A DNA stretch of 64,000 nt, from contig NZ_AP019547.1 in assembly GCF_013168275.1 (NCBI RefSeq), positions 1,054,001-1,118,000 of the forward strand, written 5' to 3'. This DNA comes from Candidatus Nitrotoga sp. AM1P. Lineage in GTDB: Bacteria; Pseudomonadota; Gammaproteobacteria; Burkholderiales; Gallionellaceae. A program made the translations under genes and the position numbers. The notes under the pieces were generated by a model. It was not told the DNA's origin. It did not search any database and saw only the letters and a program-made list of their open reading frames with translations. Position 1 is the stretch's first letter. Every line of letters starts with the position of its first letter. This document shows positions 14,326-63,325 of this stretch, one piece after another.

Positions 14326-15300
14326 ATGAATCGGACAGAACGTTTTTACAAAATTGAGCAACTACTAATTTCACGTCGGATCGTACCAATTTCCATCTTT
14401 CTCGAAGTGCTTGGAATTTCGCTGGCTACATTTAAGCGTGATCTGGAATATCTGCGTAACCGAATGAATATGCCCATCGAGTGGGATCGAAACGTCAGAG
14501 GATATCGGTATGTAACAATCAATCCCAATGACAGATCCTCCACCTTACCTGGATTGTGGTTCACTGCCTCAGAAGTGCATGCCCTTTTGACGATGCAACA
14601 CCTGCTCACCAATCTTGGCAATGGTTTATTGAGCAGCCATATCGCACCATTGCAGACCCGCCTTAAAGCCTTGCTGGGCAGTGCTGACCATAGTGTTGAA
14701 GAAGTCGAGATGCGTATCAAGTTGGAGCACGCCACCAGGCGCACCCTGCCACTTCAATGTTTTGAGACGATCGCCACGGCAACGTTGCAACGCAAGCAAT
14801 TGCAGATCACCCACTTCAACCGCCAGAACGGACAAGAAAACACGCGCATTATTTCCCCCCAGCAACTACTGTTCTATCGGGATAACTGGTACGTCGACGC
14901 ATGGTGCCATCTGAGAGCAAGCATCCGCAGCTTTTCCATTGATGCCATCCGTCATGCGGAATTGGTAGAGGCACCCGCAATTGAATTACCGCAACCTGAA
15001 CTCCAGGATTATTTCAAAAAGGGCTACGGCATATTCTCAGGCACGAAGGTAGCTTGGGCAAAACTCAGGTTTACCCCAGAGCGGGCGCGATGGGTCGCCA
15101 CTGAACAATGGCATCCCGAGCAAAAATCTCGTTTTGATAAAGAGGGATATTATTGCTTGGAAGTCCCCTATTCCGATGACCGCGAACTATTGATGGACAT
15201 ACTCAAGCACGGTACTGAAGTCGAAGTAATAACACCTAAGGCACTGAGAGGTAGCGTCAGCAAATTGCTTGAATCTGCTTTGGCGCAATATAAAATCTAA
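14326..15300 (+). CDS. WYL-domain transcriptional regulator next to cas genes
   Basis: A 324-residue regulator. It has an N-terminal winged helix of the HTH_11/DeoR type (RFYKIEQLLISRRIVPISIF with recognition helix SLATFKRDLEYLRNRM), a central WYL domain (core residues 140-225, with FYRDNWYVDAWCHLR as the WYL signature, here NWYV) and a C-terminal WCX region. WYL domains sense nucleic acids or small ligands, and such regulators are repeatedly found beside CRISPR-cas operons, usually as repressors or activators. It is in the same direction as cas3, about 300 bp upstream, so control of the cas genes is likely but inferred. Confidence 0.88.
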   Translation: MNRTERFYKIEQLLISRRIVPISIFLEVLGISLATFKRDLEYLRNRMNMPIEWDRNVRGYRYVTINPNDRSSTLPGLWFTASEVHALLTMQHLLTNLGNGLLSSHIAPLQTRLKALLGSADHSVEEVEMRIKLEHATRRTLPLQCFETIATATLQRKQLQITHFNRQNGQENTRIISPQQLLFYRDNWYVDAWCHLRASIRSFSIDAIRHAELVEAPAIELPQPELQDYFKKGYGIFSGTKVAWAKLRFTPERARWVATEQWHPEQKSRFDKEGYYCLEVPYSDDRELLMDILKHGTEVEVITPKALRGSVSKLLESALAQYKI

Positions 15301-15382
15301 AATTTATTTCAGTGGCTCACGCCATGAGCTACTACCCCCATTATCATGGGTTCATCCAAATTAATTCAACAAGGAGAAACCC

Positions 15383-15478
15383 ATGTGGAAAGAAATCAAA
15401 ATTAACCCAGACCGGCTGGTATTTTTTGGATGCATGTCCGGGGGAATTGTGTTGGCCGTTGTTAATTTGATGTATTGA
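15383..15478 (+). CDS. 31-residue putative membrane microprotein
   Basis: A tiny ORF with a strong ribosome-binding site (AAGGAG, 7 nt before the ATG). The product starts MWKEIKINPDRLVFF and continues with a short hydrophobic helix (GCMSGGIVLAVVNLMY). Size and layout resemble single-span small membrane proteins. It lies between the WYL regulator and cas3 in the same direction. Function unknown. The quality of the initiation site is the main evidence that it is translated. Confidence 0.45.
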   Translation: MWKEIKINPDRLVFFGCMSGGIVLAVVNLMY

Positions 15479-15503
15479 AAATGTGGAGTGTTGAATAGAT
15501 AGC

Positions 15504-15555
15504 GCAACGTTGCTAGCAATGGCGAATACTCTAGATTGGTGAATAGTTAATTCAC
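15504..15555 (+). promoter_or_regulatory. Candidate cas3 promoter with two palindromes
   Basis: A possible -35 (TTGCTA, 15510-15515) and -10 (TAGATT, 15532-15537) are 16 nt apart. The perfect palindrome GCAACGTTGC (15504-15513) overlaps the -35. An inverted repeat GTGAAT-N5-ATTCAC (15539-15555) covers the likely start point. This layout suits repression, perhaps by the WYL protein. Confidence 0.35.
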
Positions 15556-15595
15556 GGCAAATTTTGGAGATTCGCTTTATTTAAAGGACGAATGA

Positions 15596-18253
15596 GTGAG
15601 CGAACTGGAATCGTATTATCGTTATTGGGGCAAAGCACAACCATCCGAGGATGGCCAGGCAGCGTTTCACTTGTTGCCGTTTCATTGTCTGGATGTGGCG
15701 GCAGTGGGTGCTACTTGGTGGAAACAGAGCACTTCCTTACGGCGTCAGCTTGCAAGCCAGGTGCAACTTGATGCGACGTCACCGATATTAAAAGCATGGG
15801 TACTTTTTTTCATTGCCTTGCATGATCTTGGTAAATTGGATGTGCGATTTCAGATGAAGGCGCCCAGCGTGCTCAACCATCTCCAAACAATCAATGACCC
15901 AGACGACTTACCTTACCGCAGTGAATCTGAAAAATACTTTCACGGAGAAGCAGGTTATGACTGGTTTTTAAAGGAAGGGCATTTTTACCTCGGATTAGAA
16001 AAAACTTCAATGTATGAAGATCTACGAGATGCATGGCGACCCTGGCTGGGTGCAGTCGCTGGGCATCATGGCCACATCGTTAGGCAAGAAAATGGCATGC
16101 ATCCGCCGGATGCAGAGGATTATTTAGTTTTACAAGATAGCTTCGTGCGAAAGGCATGGATGGAAGCATTGGCGGCAATTTTTCTGGCGCCTGCGGGTTT
16201 GTCTTTACACGATCAACCTCCCGTGTTGAATCGTGAGGATATGCCCTATCTGGCCGGTTTCTGTGCCGTTTGCGACTGGCTTGGCTCCAACGAAACATGG
16301 TTTCGCTATACCGGCGATGAATGTGTAGAGCTGAAAAAATATTTTGATGAGCGTTGCCGCGATGTCGAAGAGCAAAGCCTGATTGAACATTGTGGTTTGA
16401 TGCATCAGGCGGCACCTTATAGCGGCATTGCAGCGTTGCTCAATGCGAATGAATTCCCGCGTCAGCTCCAAACGGTTATCAATGCACTGCCGCTACAAAC
16501 TGGCCTCACATTGGTGGAAGCCCCTACTGGCTCTGGTAAAACGGAAACTGCCCTGGCTTATGCCTGGCGGTTACTCGATGCAGGTCTTGCCGACAGCATT
16601 GTTTTTGCCCTCCCTACGCAAGCCACGGCAAATGCGATGTGGGAAAGGCTCAATCATTTTGCCGATATCTTGTTTGGTGCGAATAGCAATCTAGTCTTGG
16701 CGCACGGTCGCGCACGCTGGCATGACGGTCATGCGCAACTCAAAGAGGCTGCTTCTCAGCGCAGTGCGCAAACCACGGAGGATATTCGTGTGCAATGCGG
16801 TGAATGGATTGCCGAAAGCCGTAAGCGGGTTTTCCTCGGGCAGATTGGAGTTTGTACTGTCGATCAGGTGCTGTTATCTGTTTTGCCGCTGCGCCATAAA
16901 TTTGTACGTGGGTTCGGCGTAATGAAGTCGGTACTAATCGTCGATGAAGTACACGCTTACGACCACTATATGTACGGCTTGCTGCACAGCGTGCTGAGCC
17001 AGCAACGTCGGGCGGGTGGCAGTGCAGTGCTACTCTCAGCAACATTACCCGCCAGCCAACGCAATCAATTGGCGCTGGCTTGGTGCAGTGCAAGCACTTT
17101 GCCCGCCGATGCGCCTTATCCATTGTTAACGCACATCGCTGCCGATGGAAAAATCACCCCGGTACAAATTACCGATTCTGCACAATTACCACCTGAAAGA
17201 ACGGTTACCATCGAATGCATCCAGCAGCCTAATCTCTGGCCAAACGATGAATTACTTGATCGCGTCATCCATGCCGCAGAAGTCGGTGCACGCGTCGTGA
17301 TCATTTGTAATCTAGTGGATAACGCCCAACAACTTGCCCGTCACCTTAGCCAAAAAACCACGACGCCTGTCGATCTATTCCATGCGCGTTATCGCTTCGC
17401 AGACCGGCAAGCGAAAGAGGAAATGGTACTTGCGCAATATGGCCGACATGCTGAGCGCAGCGGCGGGCGCATCTTGGTCGCCACGCAAGTGGTGGAACAA
17501 AGTCTTGATCTTGATTTCGATTGGCTCATTACGCAGCTATGCCCGGTAGATTTACTGTTCCAACGCTTAGGACGGCTGCATCGTCATCAACGTGATAACC
17601 GCCCTGCTGGGTTTGAGCAGCCAACTTGCACGGTACTGACTGCGCCAGATGCAAATTACGGATTGCATAAGCTGATTTACGGCAATACCCGTGTACTTTG
17701 GCGCACGCAGAAATTGCTTGAAGCGCACTCATCCATTTATTTTCCAGCGGCATACCGTGACTGGATAGAGCAAGTGTACGAGCGACCTAGCTGGGAAGGC
17801 GAGCCTGAGCCTATTGCGTTGGACTTTGAAAAATTCCATGTCGTACAAAATGCCAAGCGCGATCTAGCAAAAAGGCTCTCCAACGACACCATGAATCCAC
17901 TGGCCGACAGCGACAATAACGTGCGGGTATTAACGCGTGACGGTGAGATGTCTCTGTCTGTTGTCTTGCTCGATACCGACGATAAGCTACTTTACGATCC
18001 CGATCCATTGCCGCATCCGGATGCATGGGATCGCGCCGAGAAAATTTCTTTGGGTTCGGTCAGCGTACCTCATACATGGGCAAATTCAATGCCAGAACCG
18101 AATAACGCTTACGAAATTTTGCTAATAATGAAATTGCAGGATGGCGTCTGGCGAGGGGAATGTAAAGCTTGTGAATATGCTTACACCCGCATGTATGGTC
18201 TCGAGCGAGAAAAGAAAAGTCCCCGCAAAAGCGGGGAACACAATAATGATTAA
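15596..18253 (+). CDS. cas3: CRISPR-associated helicase/nuclease Cas3 (type I-E)
   Basis: An 885-residue fusion of an N-terminal HD nuclease and an SF2 helicase, recruited by Cascade to nick, unwind and degrade target DNA. HD residues: H30 and the H76-D77 pair (IALHDLGKLD), plus HGEAGYDW and the GHHGH motif. Helicase: Walker A APTGSGKTE near 311, DEVH near 450, SAT near 481 (LLSATLP), and motif VI QRLGRLHRH near 655. Length and motifs are normal for I-E. The in-frame start is the GTG at 15596; an ATG four bases earlier is out of frame and closes soon. The last ~12 codons also encode, on the other strand, a CRISPR-repeat-like hairpin. Confidence 0.95.
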   Translation: MSELESYYRYWGKAQPSEDGQAAFHLLPFHCLDVAAVGATWWKQSTSLRRQLASQVQLDATSPILKAWVLFFIALHDLGKLDVRFQMKAPSVLNHLQTINDPDDLPYRSESEKYFHGEAGYDWFLKEGHFYLGLEKTSMYEDLRDAWRPWLGAVAGHHGHIVRQENGMHPPDAEDYLVLQDSFVRKAWMEALAAIFLAPAGLSLHDQPPVLNREDMPYLAGFCAVCDWLGSNETWFRYTGDECVELKKYFDERCRDVEEQSLIEHCGLMHQAAPYSGIAALLNANEFPRQLQTVINALPLQTGLTLVEAPTGSGKTETALAYAWRLLDAGLADSIVFALPTQATANAMWERLNHFADILFGANSNLVLAHGRARWHDGHAQLKEAASQRSAQTTEDIRVQCGEWIAESRKRVFLGQIGVCTVDQVLLSVLPLRHKFVRGFGVMKSVLIVDEVHAYDHYMYGLLHSVLSQQRRAGGSAVLLSATLPASQRNQLALAWCSASTLPADAPYPLLTHIAADGKITPVQITDSAQLPPERTVTIECIQQPNLWPNDELLDRVIHAAEVGARVVIICNLVDNAQQLARHLSQKTTTPVDLFHARYRFADRQAKEEMVLAQYGRHAERSGGRILVATQVVEQSLDLDFDWLITQLCPVDLLFQRLGRLHRHQRDNRPAGFEQPTCTVLTAPDANYGLHKLIYGNTRVLWRTQKLLEAHSSIYFPAAYRDWIEQVYERPSWEGEPEPIALDFEKFHVVQNAKRDLAKRLSNDTMNPLADSDNNVRVLTRDGEMSLSVVLLDTDDKLLYDPDPLPHPDAWDRAEKISLGSVSVPHTWANSMPEPNNAYEILLIMKLQDGVWRGECKACEYAYTRMYGLEREKKSPRKSGEHNND

Positions 18254-18302
18254 AAAGTTAATCAAAATCCTAACGGTACATCCCTAAAAAATTAAGGAAC
18301 CT
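18213..18302 (-). ncRNA. Solitary crRNA-like RNA (CreR/CreA-type candidate)
   Basis: Read on the minus strand, GGGATGTACCG (ends 18274) matches the 3' end of the local CRISPR repeat (GGGATGAACCG), giving a handle ATGTACCG. Exactly 32 nt follow (18273-18242), the normal I-E spacer length. Then comes GTGTTCCCC-GCTTTTG-CGGGGA (18241-18220), whose first nine bases equal the repeat and whose stem (CCCCGC/GCGGGG) replaces the repeat stem (CCCCAC/GTGGGG) with compensating changes. A T-rich stretch (ACTTTTCTTTTC) follows and could terminate it. A weak promoter (TTGTAG at 18335-18330, TAAAGT at 18312-18307, 17 nt apart) would start RNA near 18300. The pseudo-spacer's first 13 nt match 18359-18347, next to an AAG PAM. 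Confidence 0.75.
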
Positions 18303-18327
18303 AAATACTTTACTAAATCTAGTAGCA

Positions 18328-18389
18328 TTCTACAAGATCTGGTTATATCAAAATCCTAACTTGTAAAAATATAAAAACCAGATTACAGT
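18328..18389 (+). promoter_or_regulatory. Partial protospacer overlapping the probable cse1-operon promoter
   Basis: The 14-bp sequence ATCAAAATCCTAAC at 18347-18360 repeats 18261-18274, the seed end of the crRNA-like spacer. On the minus strand it is preceded by AAG (18362-18360), the classic I-E PAM. Plus-strand promoter options are TTGTAA (18361-18366)/TACAGT (18384-18389) with a 17-nt gap, or a -10 TATAAA at 18370-18375 with its -35 inside the seed match. In both cases Cascade bound at 18328-18362 would block transcription toward cse1. Confidence 0.6.
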
Positions 18390-18418
18390 CCCGTATGTTT
18401 ATTAAATACGGGGACTTT

Positions 18419-18547
18419 ATGAGCTATTTTTTGATCTGGTTGCGTTGCATAGTTCGAGAGGCAAACAAAATACAACCTCACGGCTTAATGTTGTTTGTTC
18501 TGATTTTTGCCAGTTTTATCATTTTATTAATTGGGATAAAGACATGA
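18419..18547 (+). CDS. 42-residue putative membrane peptide coupled to cse1
   Basis: Not recognised. An ATG with GGGGA 4-5 nt upstream opens a 42-codon ORF whose TGA overlaps the cse1 ATG (ATGA), the normal sign of translational coupling. The peptide begins MSYFLIWLRCIV and ends with a hydrophobic segment (LMLFVLIFASFIILLIG) plus IKT, so it could insert in the membrane. Its ribosome-binding site lies in the right arm of a hairpin (GTCCCGTAT at 18388-18396 with ATACGGGGAC at 18406-18415). It could be a toxin held in check by the crRNA-like RNA (CreT role), a leader peptide for cse1, or chance. Confidence 0.45.
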   Translation: MSYFLIWLRCIVREANKIQPHGLMLFVLIFASFIILLIGIKT

Positions 18548-20049
18548 ATTTATACCGCGATGCATGGATTCCCGTTCGTAGCACTGATGCAGACTTTCAG
18601 TTAATCAGCCTAAAGCGACTGCTTTGTCAAGATGAAGCTTGGCAAATTTCCATACCGCGCGATGACATGGAGCTGGCCTGTCTGCAATTACTTATTTCAC
18701 TGGTACAGGTGGCCTTTACACCGACTGACGAAATAGCGTGGCGGCAAAAAATGCGCTCATTGCTGGATGAAGCGGCCTTTGACGCAGACGTTGCGCCTTT
18801 GCGGGACTGGTTCGATTTAGATCATCCCGTGCATCCATTCATGCAAACGCGTGGTGTGAAATCGGCCGAAGCCACACCGATTCAAAAGTTGCTGGTTGGT
18901 CTGCCAGAAGGAAATAATCACACTTTCTTTAACATGCCAGGTGAAGTTAGCCACTTGGGTGCGTCAATGGCTGCTATCGCACTCTTTAATCAGGCATCCA
19001 ATACGCCCAGTTTCGGTGGTGGCTTTAAAGGCGGATTACGTGGTACACCCGTGACTACTTTGATTACCGGTGATGACTTGCGGCAGATCATATGGCGCAA
19101 TGTATTACATGAGGAGATATTGCGGCGAATCATGCCTTGGTATGAGGTTACTAAAAATCAGCCACCTAGCTGGGTTGAGCGGATTAAATCAGGTGACAAA
19201 ATACACGCCAATCAAATTGGGCTGTTGCGTGGCCTGTTTTGGCAGCCCAACTTGGTAGAGCTAATTCCAGCCAACACTGAGCGAAGTTGTGATGTATTGC
19301 AGGGTAAAGCACAAAGTGGATATAGCGGATTCAATAAAGAAAAATTTATATTTGAAGTCATTGGCTTGTGGCCTCACCCACATAGCCCACGTGAATTTGA
19401 AATAAAAAAAGAAGGGCGTACAGAACGCTTTTTGGGCTTCACTACGACTGCACCCGCTTGGACGCAGTGCGGCCATTTTTTATTTGACCAGTTAGGCGCT
19501 AGCCAAGCCAAAGAAGGAAGCAATGCGGCTGCTGTTGTAACGCAATGGCGAGAGTCTGGAGCAAGCAATCTACGCTTGATTATCGGCGGCTATCGCAACA
19601 AGCAAGCCTCAATTTTGCAGCGCCGCCATGAGTCACTGAGTATAGGCGAAGGTTGGCAGAGCCAAAATGGTCAACAAACCATTGAGTGGGCTATCGGGCA
19701 AGCGCTATCTGTCAAAAAACTCCTGCGTGGCAAGTTATACAGTGTCGTGAAAGGCAACCGTGACAAAGGTTTGAAAGCACTGGGTGCTGATATTCACGAA
19801 CTTGGGGAGACGTTTTTTTATCAGCGAACCGAAAACTTGATTCAAACCTGGTTAAAGGAAATGACACGCACCGAAAGAAGGGAAGAAAAAGCGCTGTTCA
19901 CAGCAGACCTTAGCCAGATCTGTCGGAAGATATTTGAAGAAGTTACTGATCCGTATTGCCAAAACCCCGCATTAATTCGTACCGTGGCATTAGCCAAACG
20001 GAGTCTAAATTTTGAATTGAATAAATTGAAGGAGCTAATCGCACAATGA
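18544..20049 (+). CDS. cse1: Cascade large subunit Cas8e (Cse1/CasA)
   Basis: A 501-residue large subunit of the type I-E Cascade complex. It recognises the PAM and recruits Cas3. The start at 18544 (MNLYRDAWIPVR) is the canonical family N-terminus; the frame is open for 33 codons upstream but that part is not family-like. Cse1-type segments include HPFMQTRG, FFNMPGEVSHLG and GGGFKGGLRGTPVTTLI, followed by the C-terminal helical bundle. The start overlaps the stop of the 42-residue ORF and the stop overlaps the cse2 start (ATGA), so it belongs to a tightly coupled operon that begins after the cas3-cse1 gap. Confidence 0.94.
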   Translation: MNLYRDAWIPVRSTDADFQLISLKRLLCQDEAWQISIPRDDMELACLQLLISLVQVAFTPTDEIAWRQKMRSLLDEAAFDADVAPLRDWFDLDHPVHPFMQTRGVKSAEATPIQKLLVGLPEGNNHTFFNMPGEVSHLGASMAAIALFNQASNTPSFGGGFKGGLRGTPVTTLITGDDLRQIIWRNVLHEEILRRIMPWYEVTKNQPPSWVERIKSGDKIHANQIGLLRGLFWQPNLVELIPANTERSCDVLQGKAQSGYSGFNKEKFIFEVIGLWPHPHSPREFEIKKEGRTERFLGFTTTAPAWTQCGHFLFDQLGASQAKEGSNAAAVVTQWRESGASNLRLIIGGYRNKQASILQRRHESLSIGEGWQSQNGQQTIEWAIGQALSVKKLLRGKLYSVVKGNRDKGLKALGADIHELGETFFYQRTENLIQTWLKEMTRTERREEKALFTADLSQICRKIFEEVTDPYCQNPALIRTVALAKRSLNFELNKLKELIAQ

Positions 20050-20519
20050 ACATCGTTCAATCTTCCTCTAAGAAAGCACTGCCGGATTTTGTGGCACTTT
20101 ATAAGCATTACGAAATATTAAGCAAAAATGGTAATTTGCGCTCGCAATTAGGCAAGCGGATTGGCAAGCCAGAGGAGCTACGTGATCGACCTGCCTATTA
20201 TCGTTTATTTCCAGGTGAAAGCCCTCCAAAATGGGGGGAGAGAGTTATCTTCTTAATGCCCTTTTGCACCCATCAGCCAGGTGCGGTTTCGCTAGGACAG
20301 AAACTAGCAGAGGCTAAAATTTCAGAAGCACGCCTTCTGCAAGTCATCCGCGCGGACTACGACAATGATCTGATTCAGTTACGTCGCTTGGTGCAACACG
20401 TTGCACCGCCCGTCGATTGGTCAGCACTGGGCACTACTCTTTATTTCTGGAATGAGAAAGCCAAACGCGAGCTACTTGAAGATTTCTTTATCCATCAATC
20501 TGCCAAACCCAACAAATAA
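20046..20519 (+). CDS. cse2: Cascade small subunit Cse2 (CasB)
   Basis: A 157-residue helical small subunit of I-E Cascade, normally present as two copies that hold the displaced non-target strand. The family pattern is seen in the Arg-rich middle (GKRIGKPEELRDRPAYYRLF), in FLMPFCTHQPG and in ARLLQVIRADYDNDLIQLRRLVQHV. Length is normal for Cse2 (~160). It starts inside the cse1 stop codon (ATGA) and is followed after 14 nt by cas7e, whose GGAG-type ribosome-binding site lies in the gap. Confidence 0.92.
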   Translation: MNIVQSSSKKALPDFVALYKHYEILSKNGNLRSQLGKRIGKPEELRDRPAYYRLFPGESPPKWGERVIFLMPFCTHQPGAVSLGQKLAEAKISEARLLQVIRADYDNDLIQLRRLVQHVAPPVDWSALGTTLYFWNEKAKRELLEDFFIHQSAKPNK

Positions 20520-20533
20520 CGGAGCGCATTTAC

Positions 20534-21655
20534 ATGAACAAAAATTTTGTCAATTTCCACATTCTCATTTCACACAGCCCATCTTGCTTAAACCGTGATG
20601 ATATGAATATGCAAAAAACAGCAACTTTCGGTGGTGCACGACGGGTACGAATCTCCAGCCAAAGCCTGAAAAGGTCGTTTCGTACTAGCGATTATTACCA
20701 TCAGCACTTGGGTGAGCGTTCTATTCGGACGCGGGAATTAGGGCGTTTGTCAGTTGCGCTTACCAGTGCATTGGCAGGCAAATATCCTGATACCGTTATT
20801 CAAAAAACTTTGGGATTGATATCTGGTAAAGAAGAATTTGCCACAGATGCCAAAGCGGATGCCGTCGCACCTTGGTCGCTAGCCGAGTTTGCCAAGCTGT
20901 GTGACCTAGTGCAACAAGCTGAAATCGATGGCATAGATGCTAAAAAGTTAGAAAAGAAAATAGCCGACGAAACGACTGCTCTCAAACAGGCAATGGCAGA
21001 CAACCTCGATATTGCTCTTTCGGGCCGTATGGCCACCAGTGGCTTGATGACCAGCGTAGACGGCGCATTAGCTGTCGCGCATTCCATCACCACCCATACG
21101 GCAGAATCGGATATTGACTGGTTTACTGCCGTCGATGACTTGATAAGCGATGCTGGCGAAGTGGGTGCAGGACATTTGGATACGCAAGAATTTTCCTCCG
21201 GCGTGTTTTATCGCTACGCCAGCCTTAATCTGAAACAGTTGCAGGTGAATTTGGGATTGTTGCCCAACATGAAAGCGGCAGAAACGGAAAATTCACGCAG
21301 CCGCGCGCTAGACATCGCTGCGCATGCGCTGCATTTACTGGCAACCGTAGTGCCAGATGCAAAGCAACAATCCTTTGCCGCCCATAATATGGCTGACTTT
21401 GCACTTGTGAGCCTTGCTGATCAACCGGTCTCTTTGGCCAATGCCTTTGAAAAGCCAGTGATTGGCAAGGGTGGGCTGTTGCAACCGTCCGTTAATACAT
21501 TGGTAGATTACTGGCAGCGTATTCATCATGGTTATGGTTTGGATGAACAAGCGGGTGCGTTCTCCTTGTCTGTGCAGGAAAGTATAGGAGGTTTACATAT
21601 TCACGCAACCTTGTCCGATTTGGAAAAATGGTTGCGCGCTGATGGTCAACGCTAA
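20534..21655 (+). CDS. cas7e: Cascade backbone subunit Cas7e (Cse4/CasC)
   Basis: A 373-residue backbone protein; six copies wrap the crRNA spacer in I-E Cascade. Clear family motifs are the N-terminus VNFHILISHSPSCLNRDD, the RNA-binding stretch TATFGGARRVRISSQSLKRSFR, the central SGRMATSGLMTSVDGALAVAHSITTH region, and DWFTAVDDL with GAGHLDTQEFSSGVFYRYA. It has a good ribosome-binding site (GGAGCG) and follows cse2. Nothing in the sequence suggests damage. Confidence 0.94.
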   Translation: MNKNFVNFHILISHSPSCLNRDDMNMQKTATFGGARRVRISSQSLKRSFRTSDYYHQHLGERSIRTRELGRLSVALTSALAGKYPDTVIQKTLGLISGKEEFATDAKADAVAPWSLAEFAKLCDLVQQAEIDGIDAKKLEKKIADETTALKQAMADNLDIALSGRMATSGLMTSVDGALAVAHSITTHTAESDIDWFTAVDDLISDAGEVGAGHLDTQEFSSGVFYRYASLNLKQLQVNLGLLPNMKAAETENSRSRALDIAAHALHLLATVVPDAKQQSFAAHNMADFALVSLADQPVSLANAFEKPVIGKGGLLQPSVNTLVDYWQRIHHGYGLDEQAGAFSLSVQESIGGLHIHATLSDLEKWLRADGQR

Positions 21656-21664
21656 AGGATTGCC

Positions 21665-22321
21665 ATGTATTCATTTCTCATCTTGAAACTGGATGGTGTG
21701 ATGCAAGCGTGGGGTGACCACACTTACGAGGATTACCGTCCGACGGTTAATTTCCCTACACGTTCCGGTTTGCTCGGGCTGCTTGCCGCTTGCATGGGTA
21801 TTGAGCGTTCGGACGTGGCGGGATTGGCCGAACTGGATAAAAGTCTATGCTTTAGTATTCGTGCAGATTCAGAGAAGACAATCAAGCTGACTGATTTTCA
21901 TACCGTGATGAATGCTCGCAAAGTCGATATTCGTAAATCGGGTGAATACCCGGTTGTGTCACGCCGCGAATATCTTTGTGATGCTAAATTCACGGTGGCG
22001 ATTGGACTGAGTGAACATACCAGCGTCACGTTTGACACCATTCAGCGTGCACTGAAACAACCGGTCTACACCCCAGTTCTTGGTCGTCGATCCTGCCCGA
22101 TTTCCCGTCCATTGCTGGTTCACACTATGGAAGCAGTAGATGCACTGGCCGCGTTGGCGCAGTTTGAACCGAATCAGGGGACGATCTATACCGATTCACC
22201 CGCATTGCGCAATGATCGGCAGATTCGTCTGCGCGATGTACCACGACATGCGCGTGTGCGTCAGTTTGCTACCCGAATGGTGTCTGTCTATCCGAAAGGG
22301 AGCACTCATGTACCTGAGTAA
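21665..22321 (+). CDS. cas5e: Cascade subunit Cas5e (CasD)
   Basis: A 218-residue RAMP protein that caps the 5' handle of the crRNA in Cascade. The family N-terminus (YSFLILKLDGVMQAWGDHTYEDYRPTVNFPTRSGLLGLLAACMGIER) is complete, and the TPVLGRRSCPISRP loop and C-terminal DVPRHARVRQFATRMV are as expected. It starts 9 nt after cas7e with AAAGGA upstream, and its 3' end overlaps the cas6e start by 14 nt, so translation is coupled. Confidence 0.94.
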   Translation: MYSFLILKLDGVMQAWGDHTYEDYRPTVNFPTRSGLLGLLAACMGIERSDVAGLAELDKSLCFSIRADSEKTIKLTDFHTVMNARKVDIRKSGEYPVVSRREYLCDAKFTVAIGLSEHTSVTFDTIQRALKQPVYTPVLGRRSCPISRPLLVHTMEAVDALAALAQFEPNQGTIYTDSPALRNDRQIRLRDVPRHARVRQFATRMVSVYPKGSTHVPE

Positions 22322-22898
22322 AGTGCAGCTTGATTGGAGCGCATCGCGCAATCCTTATGAATGGCATCGGGCCTTATGGCAGCTATTCCCTAATCGCCCT
22401 GATGATGCGCGGGATTTTTTATTTCGCATGGAACAACTGCAAGCGGGAAAAGGCGCAGTGTTGCTGCTGCAATCGGCAATACCCCCGTTGGAATCCATTG
22501 CCAATGCATCTTTAATTGCGCCTACCAAAATGCTTAATTTAAGCAAATTATCTACAGGCCAAGCGTTGCGATTCCGGTTGACGGCCAACGTCATCAAAAC
22601 CATTCGCGATCAGAAAAATCCTGAGAAAAGAGTGCGCGTGCCGTTGGTACGGGAAGATGAGCAACAAGCATGGTTGGCACGGAAATTGGAAGGCGCTGCA
22701 ACGCTTGATGAAGTCACGTTGCAAAAAAATGCGCCATTGCTTTTTCGGCGCGGAGGTAGTGCAGGCAAATTGGTGACGGTGACATTTGATGGGATATTGA
22801 CGGTGACTAACCCAGAGGTCTTTCGTAACTTGGTTGCCAACGGTATTGGTGCTGCAAAAAGCTTTGGCTGCGGTTTGCTTACTATGGCCAGGACATAG
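22308..22898 (+). CDS. cas6e: crRNA-processing endoribonuclease Cas6e (CasE)
   Basis: A 196-residue RAMP endonuclease that cleaves the repeat RNA 3' of its stem, leaving an 8-nt 5' handle. The frame extends 56 codons upstream of 22308, but MYLSKVQLDW is the natural Cas6e N-terminus and GGGAG lies 6 nt before the ATG. The catalytic-region His is present near YEWHRALWQLFP, and the C-terminal Gly-rich loop (NGIGAAKSFGCGLLTMA) is intact. It overlaps cas5e by 14 nt. It should also process the crRNA-like element between cas3 and cse1, which keeps the stem shape. Confidence 0.93.
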   Translation: MYLSKVQLDWSASRNPYEWHRALWQLFPNRPDDARDFLFRMEQLQAGKGAVLLLQSAIPPLESIANASLIAPTKMLNLSKLSTGQALRFRLTANVIKTIRDQKNPEKRVRVPLVREDEQQAWLARKLEGAATLDEVTLQKNAPLLFRRGGSAGKLVTVTFDGILTVTNPEVFRNLVANGIGAAKSFGCGLLTMART

Positions 22899-22901
22899 CA
22901 C

Positions 22902-24090
<1,189 letters not shown>

Positions 24091-24197
24091 TCTGACGTAT
24101 GAGCATGGCCGTTCTTTAACAAACTAAATTGATGTAAAAATTCGGTAGGAAACTGAATCACTATATAAACATTAATAATCAATTTATTATATTTAGT
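24091..24197 (+). promoter_or_regulatory. CRISPR leader with an IHF site
   Basis: A 107-bp AT-rich leader between cas2e and the first repeat. AATCAATTTATTA (24177-24189) fits the IHF consensus WATCAANNNNTTR exactly and ends 8 bp before the first repeat. IHF bending is needed for leader-end integration in I-E systems. Confidence 0.7.
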
Positions 24198-25203
24198 GTG
24201 TTCCCCACACCCGTGGGGATGAACCGGAGCTTCTATGGTTTATGTTGTGGCGGAGGATGTGTTCCCCACACCCGTGGGGATGAACCGCACGTTTGCCGGG
24301 TATGAGGGGAGACTGCACTGTGTTCCCCACACCCGTGGGGATGAACCGGAATATTGGGCTGAGCGGGAAGAGCGGCTTGAGTGTTCCCCACACCCGTGGG
24401 GATGAACCGCCAGCCTTGCCTGAGTGATGATCGCCAGCTTCGTGTTCCCCACACCCGTGGGGATGAACCGAATCCACGCATACGCGCCTTTGATGTAGTT
24501 GCGTGTTCCCCACACCCGTGGGGATGAACCGGCGCTGCATGTTTCCGTCGTTTGTGATCAGGGGTGTTCCCCACACCCGTGGGGATGAACCGGTTCGGTA
24601 AGAACGATATTTTCCGCGTCTTAGGTGTTCCCCACACCCGTGGGGATGAACCGCCTTGGTGCAGGCCCACAAAGCTGCTGTAGATGTGTTCCCCACACCC
24701 GTGGGGATGAACCGGAGACGGCTATGAACACATTTTTACCGATCAGGTGTTCCCCACACCCGTGGGGATGAACCGCTCGATAAATTATTAATTGAATCAT
24801 CTATAAAGTGTTCCCCACACCCGTGGGGATGAACCGGCATAACAACAGGCTTGATAGACCTTGATGCCGTGTTCCCCACACCCGTGGGGATGAACCGCCA
24901 GTAAATTTAATTTTTGATTTTGATATACTGTGTTCCCCACACCCGTGGGGATGAACCGATACTATAAGATACTATTCTCTATTCGTACTAGTGTTCCCCA
25001 CACCCGTGGGGATGAACCGGGCTAACTAAAATGGATCCATTTACTACGCATGTGTTCCCCACACCCGTGGGGATGAACCGGAATGGGGAGCAGGGCAAAC
25101 TTAGTAATCAGAAGTGTTCCCCACACCCGTGGGGATGAACCGCTAGATCGTAGGAGCACACTTTATAGCAAGATGTGTTCCCCACACCCGTGGGGATGAA
25201 CCG
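24198..25203 (+). CRISPR. Type I-E CRISPR array, 17 repeats and 16 spacers
   Basis: A 29-bp repeat (GTGTTCCCC-ACACCCG-TGGGG-ATGAACCG) occurs 17 times, starting at 24198 and recurring every 61 bp; all copies read as identical. Fifteen spacers are 32 nt; the penultimate one (25081-25113) is 33 nt. The repeat folds as CCCCAC/GTGGGG with an ACCC loop and leaves the handle ATGAACCG. The leader side is at the left, next to cas2e. The last repeat is not degenerate, unlike many old array ends. Leader-distal spacers look more AT-rich than leader-proximal ones. No spacer was seen to match the rest of the window. Confidence 0.98.
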
Positions 25204-25211
25204 GGTGAAGT

Positions 25212-25964
25212 ATGGAAAAGAGCAAAAGAAGTCGGAAGCAATATATCCTAGAACAAGGAGCCACTTGTGATAACTGGTTTTGGAGTTGGTCGTTTGTCAA
25301 TCACAGAGACAAGATAATTATCTTTGGCGCATGGGATACAAATTTACAAGGTAGCAAGTGTCTGATATTGGGAAAGAATTGGGAAACAAGGCCTGACGAT
25401 AGAAAGTCTAATGGTTATCCTCAGTCTTTTAGACATATTGGACTTATAGAATATCAAGGCTATAAACTCAAAACGTTTCCTCTTATTTACTCTGATGCAA
25501 ATAAAGATACTTTAGGTCAAGGTCCGGCAAAAATTGACGGATTCATTGAAGATCTTCAGTTGAAAGTTTTGCAGGAGTTATATGACGGATGGTACGCCTG
25601 TGATGAAGATACTGAAACATTAATAGCAGAAGAAATTAATCCTCCTGAGAAGTATATTGAAGGTGCTTCACAAATAGTTTCTGTGAATGCTTATGAACGA
25701 AATCCCAAAGCGAGAGCTGCATGCATAGCTTGTCATGGTTATAAATGTTTCGCTTGCGATTTCGATTTTGAAAAAACATATGGAGATTTGGGGAAAGAAT
25801 ATATCCATGTTCACCATATAGTTCCACTCCATAAAATTAGGAAAAAATACGAGATAAATCCAGAGAAAGATTTGATACCATTGTGCCCAAATTGTCACGC
25901 GATGGTAGACAGAACCAGTCCTGCTCTAAAAATTGAAGAGCTAAAAAAATATTTAAATCGATAG
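25212..25964 (+). CDS. HNH endonuclease directly after the CRISPR array
   Basis: A 250-residue protein with a C-terminal HNH nuclease fold: zinc-type cysteines CHGYKCFAC, then HVHHIVPLHK, DLIPLCPNCHAMVDR and a closing helix. The N-terminal ~130 residues (ATCDNWFWSWSFVNHRDKIIIFGAWD and on) look like a separate recognition domain, as in McrA-like or predicted restriction nucleases; its ligand is unknown. The gene starts 9 bp after the last repeat, with a stop codon in frame just before the ATG. It is clearly more AT-rich than the cas genes, which suggests a later arrival. It may be a second defence gene or a passenger. Confidence 0.82.
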   Translation: MEKSKRSRKQYILEQGATCDNWFWSWSFVNHRDKIIIFGAWDTNLQGSKCLILGKNWETRPDDRKSNGYPQSFRHIGLIEYQGYKLKTFPLIYSDANKDTLGQGPAKIDGFIEDLQLKVLQELYDGWYACDEDTETLIAEEINPPEKYIEGASQIVSVNAYERNPKARAACIACHGYKCFACDFDFEKTYGDLGKEYIHVHHIVPLHKIRKKYEINPEKDLIPLCPNCHAMVDRTSPALKIEELKKYLNR

Positions 25965-26461
25965 CACACATAACGAATAAGGTTAGATTGTGCGAGCGAA
26001 GCGAAGCCACGATCTGAACCGTTTGTTGAAAAATCCCGGTCCCAGGGTGCGGGTCGTGCCTCATAGAAAATATATCTTTTGGAATTATCCTGACCTCAGC
26101 TTATACGAGTTATCGCCTGCTCCAGCATGTTGCGTTGGGAATTAATGATGTGCTTGAAGCCCAACCTGGCCGGTCTCCATCTTCTTCTTCCAAGTTGTTG
26201 CGCCAGTAATTTTTTTATCGGAAACTTTTATCGTTAGCTTGGGCTGCTTGACTAAGCCGTATCAGACGATCGAAATCACGCTTTGTGGCAGCTGCGACTT
26301 CATATAATTTAATATATTGTTGCTGGGATAGTCATGGATAGGATGATAAATCCTGACAATTAACGGGCAGCGTTAACAGGGTAAGTCTCTCCAAGGGGGC
26401 ATTCGTCATTAGAATAGAACTGAGGTGTTTTTCGAAAAGAATGTGCGTTACACTTATCCGC
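25965..26461. other. Gene-free region between the HNH gene and the c-di-GMP genes
   Basis: No complete gene. On the minus strand, about 26326-26213, a 38-codon stretch without a start codon reads YIKLYEVAAATKRDFDRLIR with a polar end. It may be a gene remnant but is too short to name. Confidence 0.4.
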
Positions 26462-62845: not shown

Positions 62846-63325
62846 TTACATTAAAGTCTTCTGAATATGTCGTAATAAACCATCTGACGCATCCTCCACC
62901 ATATCAAGTACACGCTCGAAACCGTCTACTTCACCATAATATGGATCGGGAACTTCACGCTCATTATGTCGGCTGGCATATTCCAAAAACAATCCCAAAC
63001 GCCCCCGCGCTTTCACTGGGCATAAACGTTGCAGAATGCCAAGATTGGCATCGTCCATCGCCAGCACATAATCAAAACGAGTAAAATCGGCAACCTCAAC
63101 CTGTCGCCCACGCAGCATGCTCATGTCGTATCCACGCTGTAACGCAGCACGCTGAGTTCGCGGGTCCGGCGGATTACCAATATGATAATCATGCGTACCT
63201 ACCGAATCAATCAGGATATGCTGTGCCAACCCCGCTTCCTCAACGCGTGCGCGGAACACTACTTCAGCGGTGGGTGACCGACAAATATTTCCCATGCAGC
63301 AAAATAAAACGCTAACTTTTTTCAA
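62846..63325 (-). CDS. Low-molecular-weight protein-tyrosine phosphatase
   Basis: A 159-residue cytoplasmic phosphatase. The P-loop VLFCCMGNICRSP has the catalytic Cys and Arg, and the general-acid loop is VPDPYYGEVDGFERVLDMVE. It is of the classical LMW-PTP type rather than ArsC (compare the ArsC at 29969, which has CTGNSCRS). Such enzymes often control tyrosine kinases of polysaccharide synthesis, but no kinase gene is near. It is convergent with rne across the terminator. Confidence 0.92.
   Translation of the reverse strand: MKKVSVLFCCMGNICRSPTAEVVFRARVEEAGLAQHILIDSVGTHDYHIGNPPDPRTQRAALQRGYDMSMLRGRQVEVADFTRFDYVLAMDDANLGILQRLCPVKARGRLGLFLEYASRHNEREVPDPYYGEVDGFERVLDMVEDASDGLLRHIQKTLM

Follow-up and report, generated by a model that had tools for sequence, protein, structure and literature searches.

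What does the gap between cas3 and cse1 encode in the type I-E locus of Candidatus Nitrotoga sp. AM1P? The gap measures about 290 bases, with the cas genes identified by Pfam, and lies in a 64,000-nucleotide stretch of DNA that was analysed as a whole and is called the window here. The initial annotation had proposed a crRNA-like RNA on the minus strand between the two genes, with a seed that matches the promoter region of the cse1 operon. In this study, we analysed the gap, searched related loci for the same arrangement and compared it with known systems. The features of the locus are as follows.

15596..18253, plus strand: cas3, from the ORF list and Pfam.
18274..18302, minus strand: psiR1, a degenerate 29-nt repeat, 17/29 against the array repeat by eye, and by its fold.
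18281-18274, minus strand: handle ATGTACCG, the end of psiR1, 7/8 against the array repeat by eye.
18242..18273, minus strand: 32-nt guide, its first 13 nt being the seed match, read directly.
18213..18241, minus strand: psiR2, a degenerate repeat that by eye keeps 15/21 bases of the array repeat as far as the predicted Cas6e cut.
18328..18362, minus strand: target, AAG at 18362-18360 and protospacer at 18359-18328, paired over 18359-18347.
18361..18389, plus strand: candidate promoter TTGTAA-17-TACAGT, weak (8/12).
18419..18547, plus strand: 42-aa ORF, from ORF reading; its stop overlaps the cse1 start.
18544..20049, plus strand: cse1 (PF09481), the first Cascade gene after the target.
24198..25203, strand not given: CRISPR array with native repeat GTGTTCCCCACACCCGTGGGGATGAACCG, 17 copies counted by eye.

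On the minus strand of the gap, psiR1 (18302-18274), the guide (18273-18242) and psiR2 (18241-18213) follow in this order, and the 3' end of cas3 overlaps psiR2 and the guide end in antisense (window 18214-18253). Direct reading of the coordinates bore out the earlier description of a minus-strand handle followed after exactly 32 nt by a repeat-like hairpin. Compared by eye with the array repeat, psiR1 agrees at 10/21 positions before the handle and at 7/8 in the handle. All six pairs of its stem form (CG, CG, TG, TA, AT, AT), and the pairing is kept despite changed bases. The psiR2 hairpin starts with GTGTTCCCCGCTTTTGCGGGGAC at 18241, a start that matches the array repeat 9/9 by eye; its stem also forms 6/6 pairs, and the Cas6e cut is predicted after 18221. 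For the RNA from 18302 to 18213, the predicted folding energy is -30.4 kcal/mol (z -5.17 relative to 200 shuffles). The window thus has the crRNA-like gene of a CreR, in which repeat-like elements of the linked system flank a guide. An Rfam search of window 15000-26000, read up to E 0.1, matched no family. In the surroundings, a WYL-domain regulator gene (window 14326-15300) lies immediately upstream of cas3, and an ORF at window 25212-25964, HNH-like by eye, starts just past the last CRISPR repeat. Relatives such as L003 are without the cas3 C-terminal tail that runs through the psiR2 antisense (18214-18253).

AAG is a PAM of type I-E. After the AAG, the target reads TTAGGATTTTGAT (18359-18347), which equals the first 13 guide bases, and the match ends at guide position 14. 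This confirmed that the start of the guide recurs behind AAG and that complementarity then stops, as had been noted. The limited, PAM-flanked guide complementarity of a CreR is therefore found in front of this cas operon. The 13-mer occurs exactly at two places, guide and target, in the 3,008,303-base genome. The pattern of AAG plus seed with up to 2 mismatches occurs at three places in the window, which does not exceed the number in shuffles; these are the target, the guide itself (2 mismatches, in the handle) and 63305-63318 (2 mismatches).

One alternative is that the gap holds nothing more than a terminator hairpin for cas3 and a direct repeat that arose by chance. The psiR2 element does score as an intrinsic terminator (18237-18220, T-rich tail), albeit on the minus strand, and was the sole terminator-like site when both strands of 18150-18560 were scanned. 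When 18213-18543 was resampled 20,000 times (first-order), 102 of the resampled sequences contained a 13-mer repeat and 38 contained a 14-mer. The earlier chance estimate of below one in a thousand was slightly optimistic, because the resampling gives the repeat alone in about 2 in 1000. Against a terminator with a chance repeat stand the handle, the 32-nt spacing, the AAG, the uniqueness in the genome and the co-variation between loci described below, and its probability is close to nil. Judged from the sequence, chance is untenable when the repeat is taken together with the handle, the length, the AAG, the hairpin and the comparative data.

We investigated whether other type I-E loci carry the same arrangement. 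Cse1 searches matched 6/158 genomes at the family level, 22/399 in the order (31/399 with PF09481), 25/369 in the class, 20/398 in the phylum and 11/56 in the family of genome G1013; these sets overlap. The loci scanned were 79, then 10 more, then 13 plasmid stretches taken from the records matched (28 in one search and 41 in another). A module was scored when a handle at most 2 mismatches from ATGAACCG and an AAG were found with at least 9 of the 10 seed positions (1-5 and 7-11) matching; the rule reaches no further than about 750 nt ahead of cse1. One locus, L110, is a CRISPR array and was dropped from the first set, and L110 and L137 were dropped from the count over all loci. Loci whose match did not include the cse1 start, and duplicates, were left out of the counts (L010, L029, L113, L114, L126 and doubles of scored places).

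In the first set, 13 of 78 loci were positive, where 0.14 hits were expected, and all hits lay on the strand opposite cse1. These 13 AAG-flanked hits came from 2,089 trials (P ~1e-21, with trials within a locus not independent). As controls, AAG was tried 4,241 times on the cse1 strand with no hit, and other trinucleotides gave 29 hits in 437,286 trials. Over 100 loci, there were 18 hits in 2,758 trials opposite cse1, 1 hit in 5,355 trials on the cse1 strand (L130, a Roseomonas plasmid) and 34 in 534,515 other trials, and 17 loci were positive. Three loci were added by hand, namely L040 (with AAA) and L051 and L134 (8/10 seed positions), so that 20/102 loci were counted as CreR-positive; 82/102 are without the module by the rule. 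The positives are not all independent, since L041 and L062 share a genome, L050 and L061 a genus, and L097, L117, L123 and L124 a family. The relatives L011 and L013, with Cse1 identities of 58% and 53%, both carry the module. In L003, L005, L006, L012 and L014, cas3 and cse1 overlap, and no AAG hit was found in these loci. A DNA match in genome G044 (L002) was rejected; it is a terminator-like hairpin that is not ahead of cse1 within the stretch examined. A scan of the viral_contigs set with the Cse1 alignment confirmed no locus. In L123 and L124, each guide has two AAG-flanked targets, and the one nearer the guide lies as if the guide also repressed its own promoter. CreR-like pairs on the cse1 strand were seen on two alphaproteobacterial plasmids, p1318-5 of Roseomonas marmotae (L130) and pACRY02 of Acidiphilium cryptum (L134).

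The survey also bears on whether the gap holds a functionless relic mini-array, a leftover repeat-spacer-repeat with a spacer taken from or directed against neighbouring DNA by chance. Both psiR1 and psiR2 are degenerate, as such a relic would be. However, the guides differ between loci and still match AAG-flanked targets nearby that differ as well, and stem pairs are maintained through changed bases, which makes a relic very improbable. A comparison of related I-E loci for handle, length and seed-target pairing had been suggested earlier. In the CreR-positive loci, guide and target co-vary between species, and the guide length varies. By the best-fitting hairpin, the guide measures 31-33 nt in 11 loci and 20-25 nt in 9, and exactly 32 nt is therefore no hallmark.

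Cascade leaves every sixth base unpaired. Across 15 guide-target pairs, the numbers matching at positions 1-16 were 15, 15, 14, 15, 14, 4, 15, 15, 13, 14, 14, 4, 14, 11, 9 and 7. The high rates at positions 1-5 and 7-11 are partly built in, because these positions were selected for by the rule. Positions 12 and 13 lie outside the selection; 12 is at chance level (4/15) and 13 matches in 14/15, and the match fades past 14. Positions 6 and 12 match in 4/15 each, and on this alignment the mismatches there are the six-base rhythm of Cascade pairing. These results strongly support a predicted crRNA-like RNA aimed just ahead of its own operon through a short AAG-flanked seed.

CreR is a Cas-regulating RNA (Liu et al. 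2023, Cell Host Microbe 31:1481, as cited in PMC13131331 and PMC12737573), and CreRs are described as acting in autorepression in I-B, I-E and V-A systems through partial promoter complementarity (PMC13131331). CreR, CreTA and CrePA are covered together in PMC12737573. The window resembles CreR, as outlined in these sources, in having a predicted crRNA-like RNA with limited complementarity to the region before the cas operon, and differs in having a small membrane-peptide ORF between the target and cse1. The module had been assigned to a CreR/CreTA type. CreR fits better, and the CreTA name could still apply because of the small peptide ORF, which the initial annotation did not mention. We conclude that the guide module very probably represses its own type I-E cas operon in the manner of a CreR. 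Autorepressors of this class are on record for I-E, and the first proposal is right in essence.

We infer that a short antisense RNA would be transcribed in the cas3-cse1 gap and cut by Cas6e at both degenerate repeats, giving a crRNA-like guide with a predicted length of 61 nt (18281-18221). Cascade loaded with this guide would bind the AAG-flanked seed match ahead of cse1. Because pairing ends at position 13, no cutting by Cas3 is expected, and the complex would only block transcription while bound. When Cascade is low, when array crRNAs compete for it, or when an anti-CRISPR protein is present, the promoter would be freed and more Cascade would be made. The same transcript probably starts with a 42-aa amphipathic membrane peptide, which would be made with Cascade.

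The position of the target relative to a promoter was also considered. In the window, another -10-like hexamer lies across the AAG complement as an alternative. A stricter promoter scan of 18150-18560 found none at 9/12 in the window, and shuffles average 1.4. A TTGACA-like hexamer starting from the second base of CTT, the AAG complement, matches at 4/6 or better in 8/18 loci, and this offset had the most TTGACA-like matches of all offsets tried. In the window it leads to the weak candidate TTGTAA-17-TACAGT (18361-18389). A TATAAT-like hexamer from the third base of CTT matches at 4/6 in 9/18 loci. The target therefore probably overlaps the -35 element in some loci and the -10 element in others. 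An inverted repeat, GTCCCGTAT..ATACGGGGAC, at window 18388-18415 overlaps the candidate -10 and the start region, and its right arm carries an SD-like GGGGA ahead of the small ORF. A 20-bp perfect inverted repeat was seen by eye at the equivalent place in L046.

The 42-aa ORF lies between the target and cse1. Like the mini-ORF of a CreTA, it follows the target and runs divergently to the guide. An in-frame ATG upstream at 18395 would extend it to 50 aa. The predicted peptide is built as an amphipathic helix, a hinge at proline P20 and one membrane helix; AlphaFold2 from the single sequence gave helices at 2-18 and 20-41 (mean pLDDT 82, pTM 0.47). The N-terminal halves of the small membrane ORFs have hydrophobic moments of 0.63-0.88. 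Searched against Pfam as far as E = 1, the 42-aa peptide matched no family, and thus no KilA-N domain as is typical of CrePA. Other library matches fell below threshold, for example the window peptide to Sec61beta (E 0.048), and are best taken as noise. Family libraries gave nothing above cut-off for the small membrane ORFs (two of the scans ran without L117 and L123/L124). In tblastn on plasmids and phages, where such a short query has little power, no relative of the window or L117 peptide was found.

Membrane ORFs were scored as 25-70 aa with hydropathy of at least 2.3 over 17 residues, a rule set after the peptides had been seen by eye. Six of the 20 CreR-positive loci have one (L013, the window, L097, L117, L123 and L124), four of the six being from one family, against 1/21 CreR-negative loci with a gap above 120 nt or of unknown length (P 0.045). 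The ratio among all CreR-negatives is 1/82 (P 0.0002), a biased comparison because gaps of up to 60 nt were not scored for the ORF, so that 1/21 is the fairer figure. Resampled gaps gave a membrane ORF by chance in 74/4,000. The rule misses the L075 peptide; the small frame of L011 is interrupted and was not counted as peptide-positive. Aligned against half-wise shuffles, the window peptide resembles those of L013 (z 5.6), L117 (5.6) and L097 (4.2), and scores z 2.4 with that of L124; its similarity to L075 (z 1.4) and L123 (z -0.1) was no greater than that of shuffles. Between the L097 and L117 peptides (z 11.2), the first codon position differs in 9 of 27 codons, the second in 3 and the third in 19, which by sequence comparison shows codon-level constraint. 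A 28-aa membrane ORF that the membrane rule picks up also lies upstream of cse1 on a Thioclava plasmid (L136), which has repeat-like remnants and no CreR pair by the rule. The CreR-positive loci L040, L041, L062 and L051 have another type of small ORF, which is cationic and amphipathic and overlaps cse1. The L040-L062 pair is clear (z 11.2), L051 less sure (z 4.6 and 3.8), and between L040 and L041 the first codon position differs in 6 of 21 codons, the second in 3 and the third in 11; the ATG frame of L041 meets a stop after three codons, and another frame is open.

The 42-aa ORF of the window raises the alternative of a CreTA/CrePA-like addiction or abortive module, in which the guide would be an antitoxin and the 42-aa peptide a toxin freed upon Cascade failure. 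Acinetobacter I-F CreTA, as described in PMC10097628, sits in the cas3-csy1 gap, and one CreA-target pair there is mismatched at positions 6, 11 and 18. The window is like it in the gap between cas3 and the first Cascade gene, the psiR1-psiS-psiR2 order, the PAM-flanked target and the divergent mini-ORF past the target. However, the CreTA mini-ORF is 33 bp with an RNA as the toxin (PMC10097628), whereas the window has a predicted 42-aa peptide that overlaps the Cascade operon. Elsewhere, CreT mini-ORFs are described as sequestering rare tRNAs (PMC8501985), and the psiR1 of CreTA as more diverged than psiR2 (PMC9458426). CrePA (Shu et al. 2025), as summarised in PMC12737573, is similar in having a predicted protein product under guide-Cascade repression; unlike the typical KilA-N-containing CreP, the window peptide is short and membrane-type. 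The similar membrane ORFs in 6/20 positive loci, the L097/L117 codon constraint and the amphipathic N-terminal half also favour a toxin. However, the ORF runs into cse1 with no plus-strand terminator-like site in 18150-18560, and the peptide would therefore be made alongside its own repressor; moreover, 14/20 CreR-positive loci are without such an ORF by the rule. We consider an addiction or abortive module unlikely.

With the CreR-type autorepressor as the preferred reading, the same promoter appears to drive the 42-aa peptide together with Cascade. We infer translation of the peptide and a role for it, most simply as a leader or small regulator, which we rank before a membrane effector. A CreT/CreP-like membrane effector is a bold alternative that we hold to be doubtful. 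The ORF, as predicted, makes the locus a CreR variant with an added element that is new here. A word search of the literature at listing level, outside the primary CreR and CrePA papers, returned no paper on such an ORF, and a small membrane-peptide ORF at the head of a presumed repressed operon may be undescribed.

The window locus suggests how a type I-E system may gauge the amount of Cascade that it has. The comparative set provides ready guide-target test pairs, including those on plasmids pACRY02 (accepted by hand) and p1318-5. Similar small membrane peptides are predicted next to CreR-type guides in some other bacteria, and if the peptide acts on the membrane, one promoter would be common to autoregulation and abortive defence. 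More speculatively, and with rather low probability, the guide-repressed promoter and its one transcript, with a membrane-active peptide before Cascade, may form a two-stage switch. If so, a mild Cascade shortage would lead to Cascade being restored, and under a lasting block, for example by an anti-CRISPR, the peptide would accumulate and the cell would halt. Such a switch would join CreR autoregulation to a CreT/CreP-like abortive arm and would define a new small-membrane-protein family.
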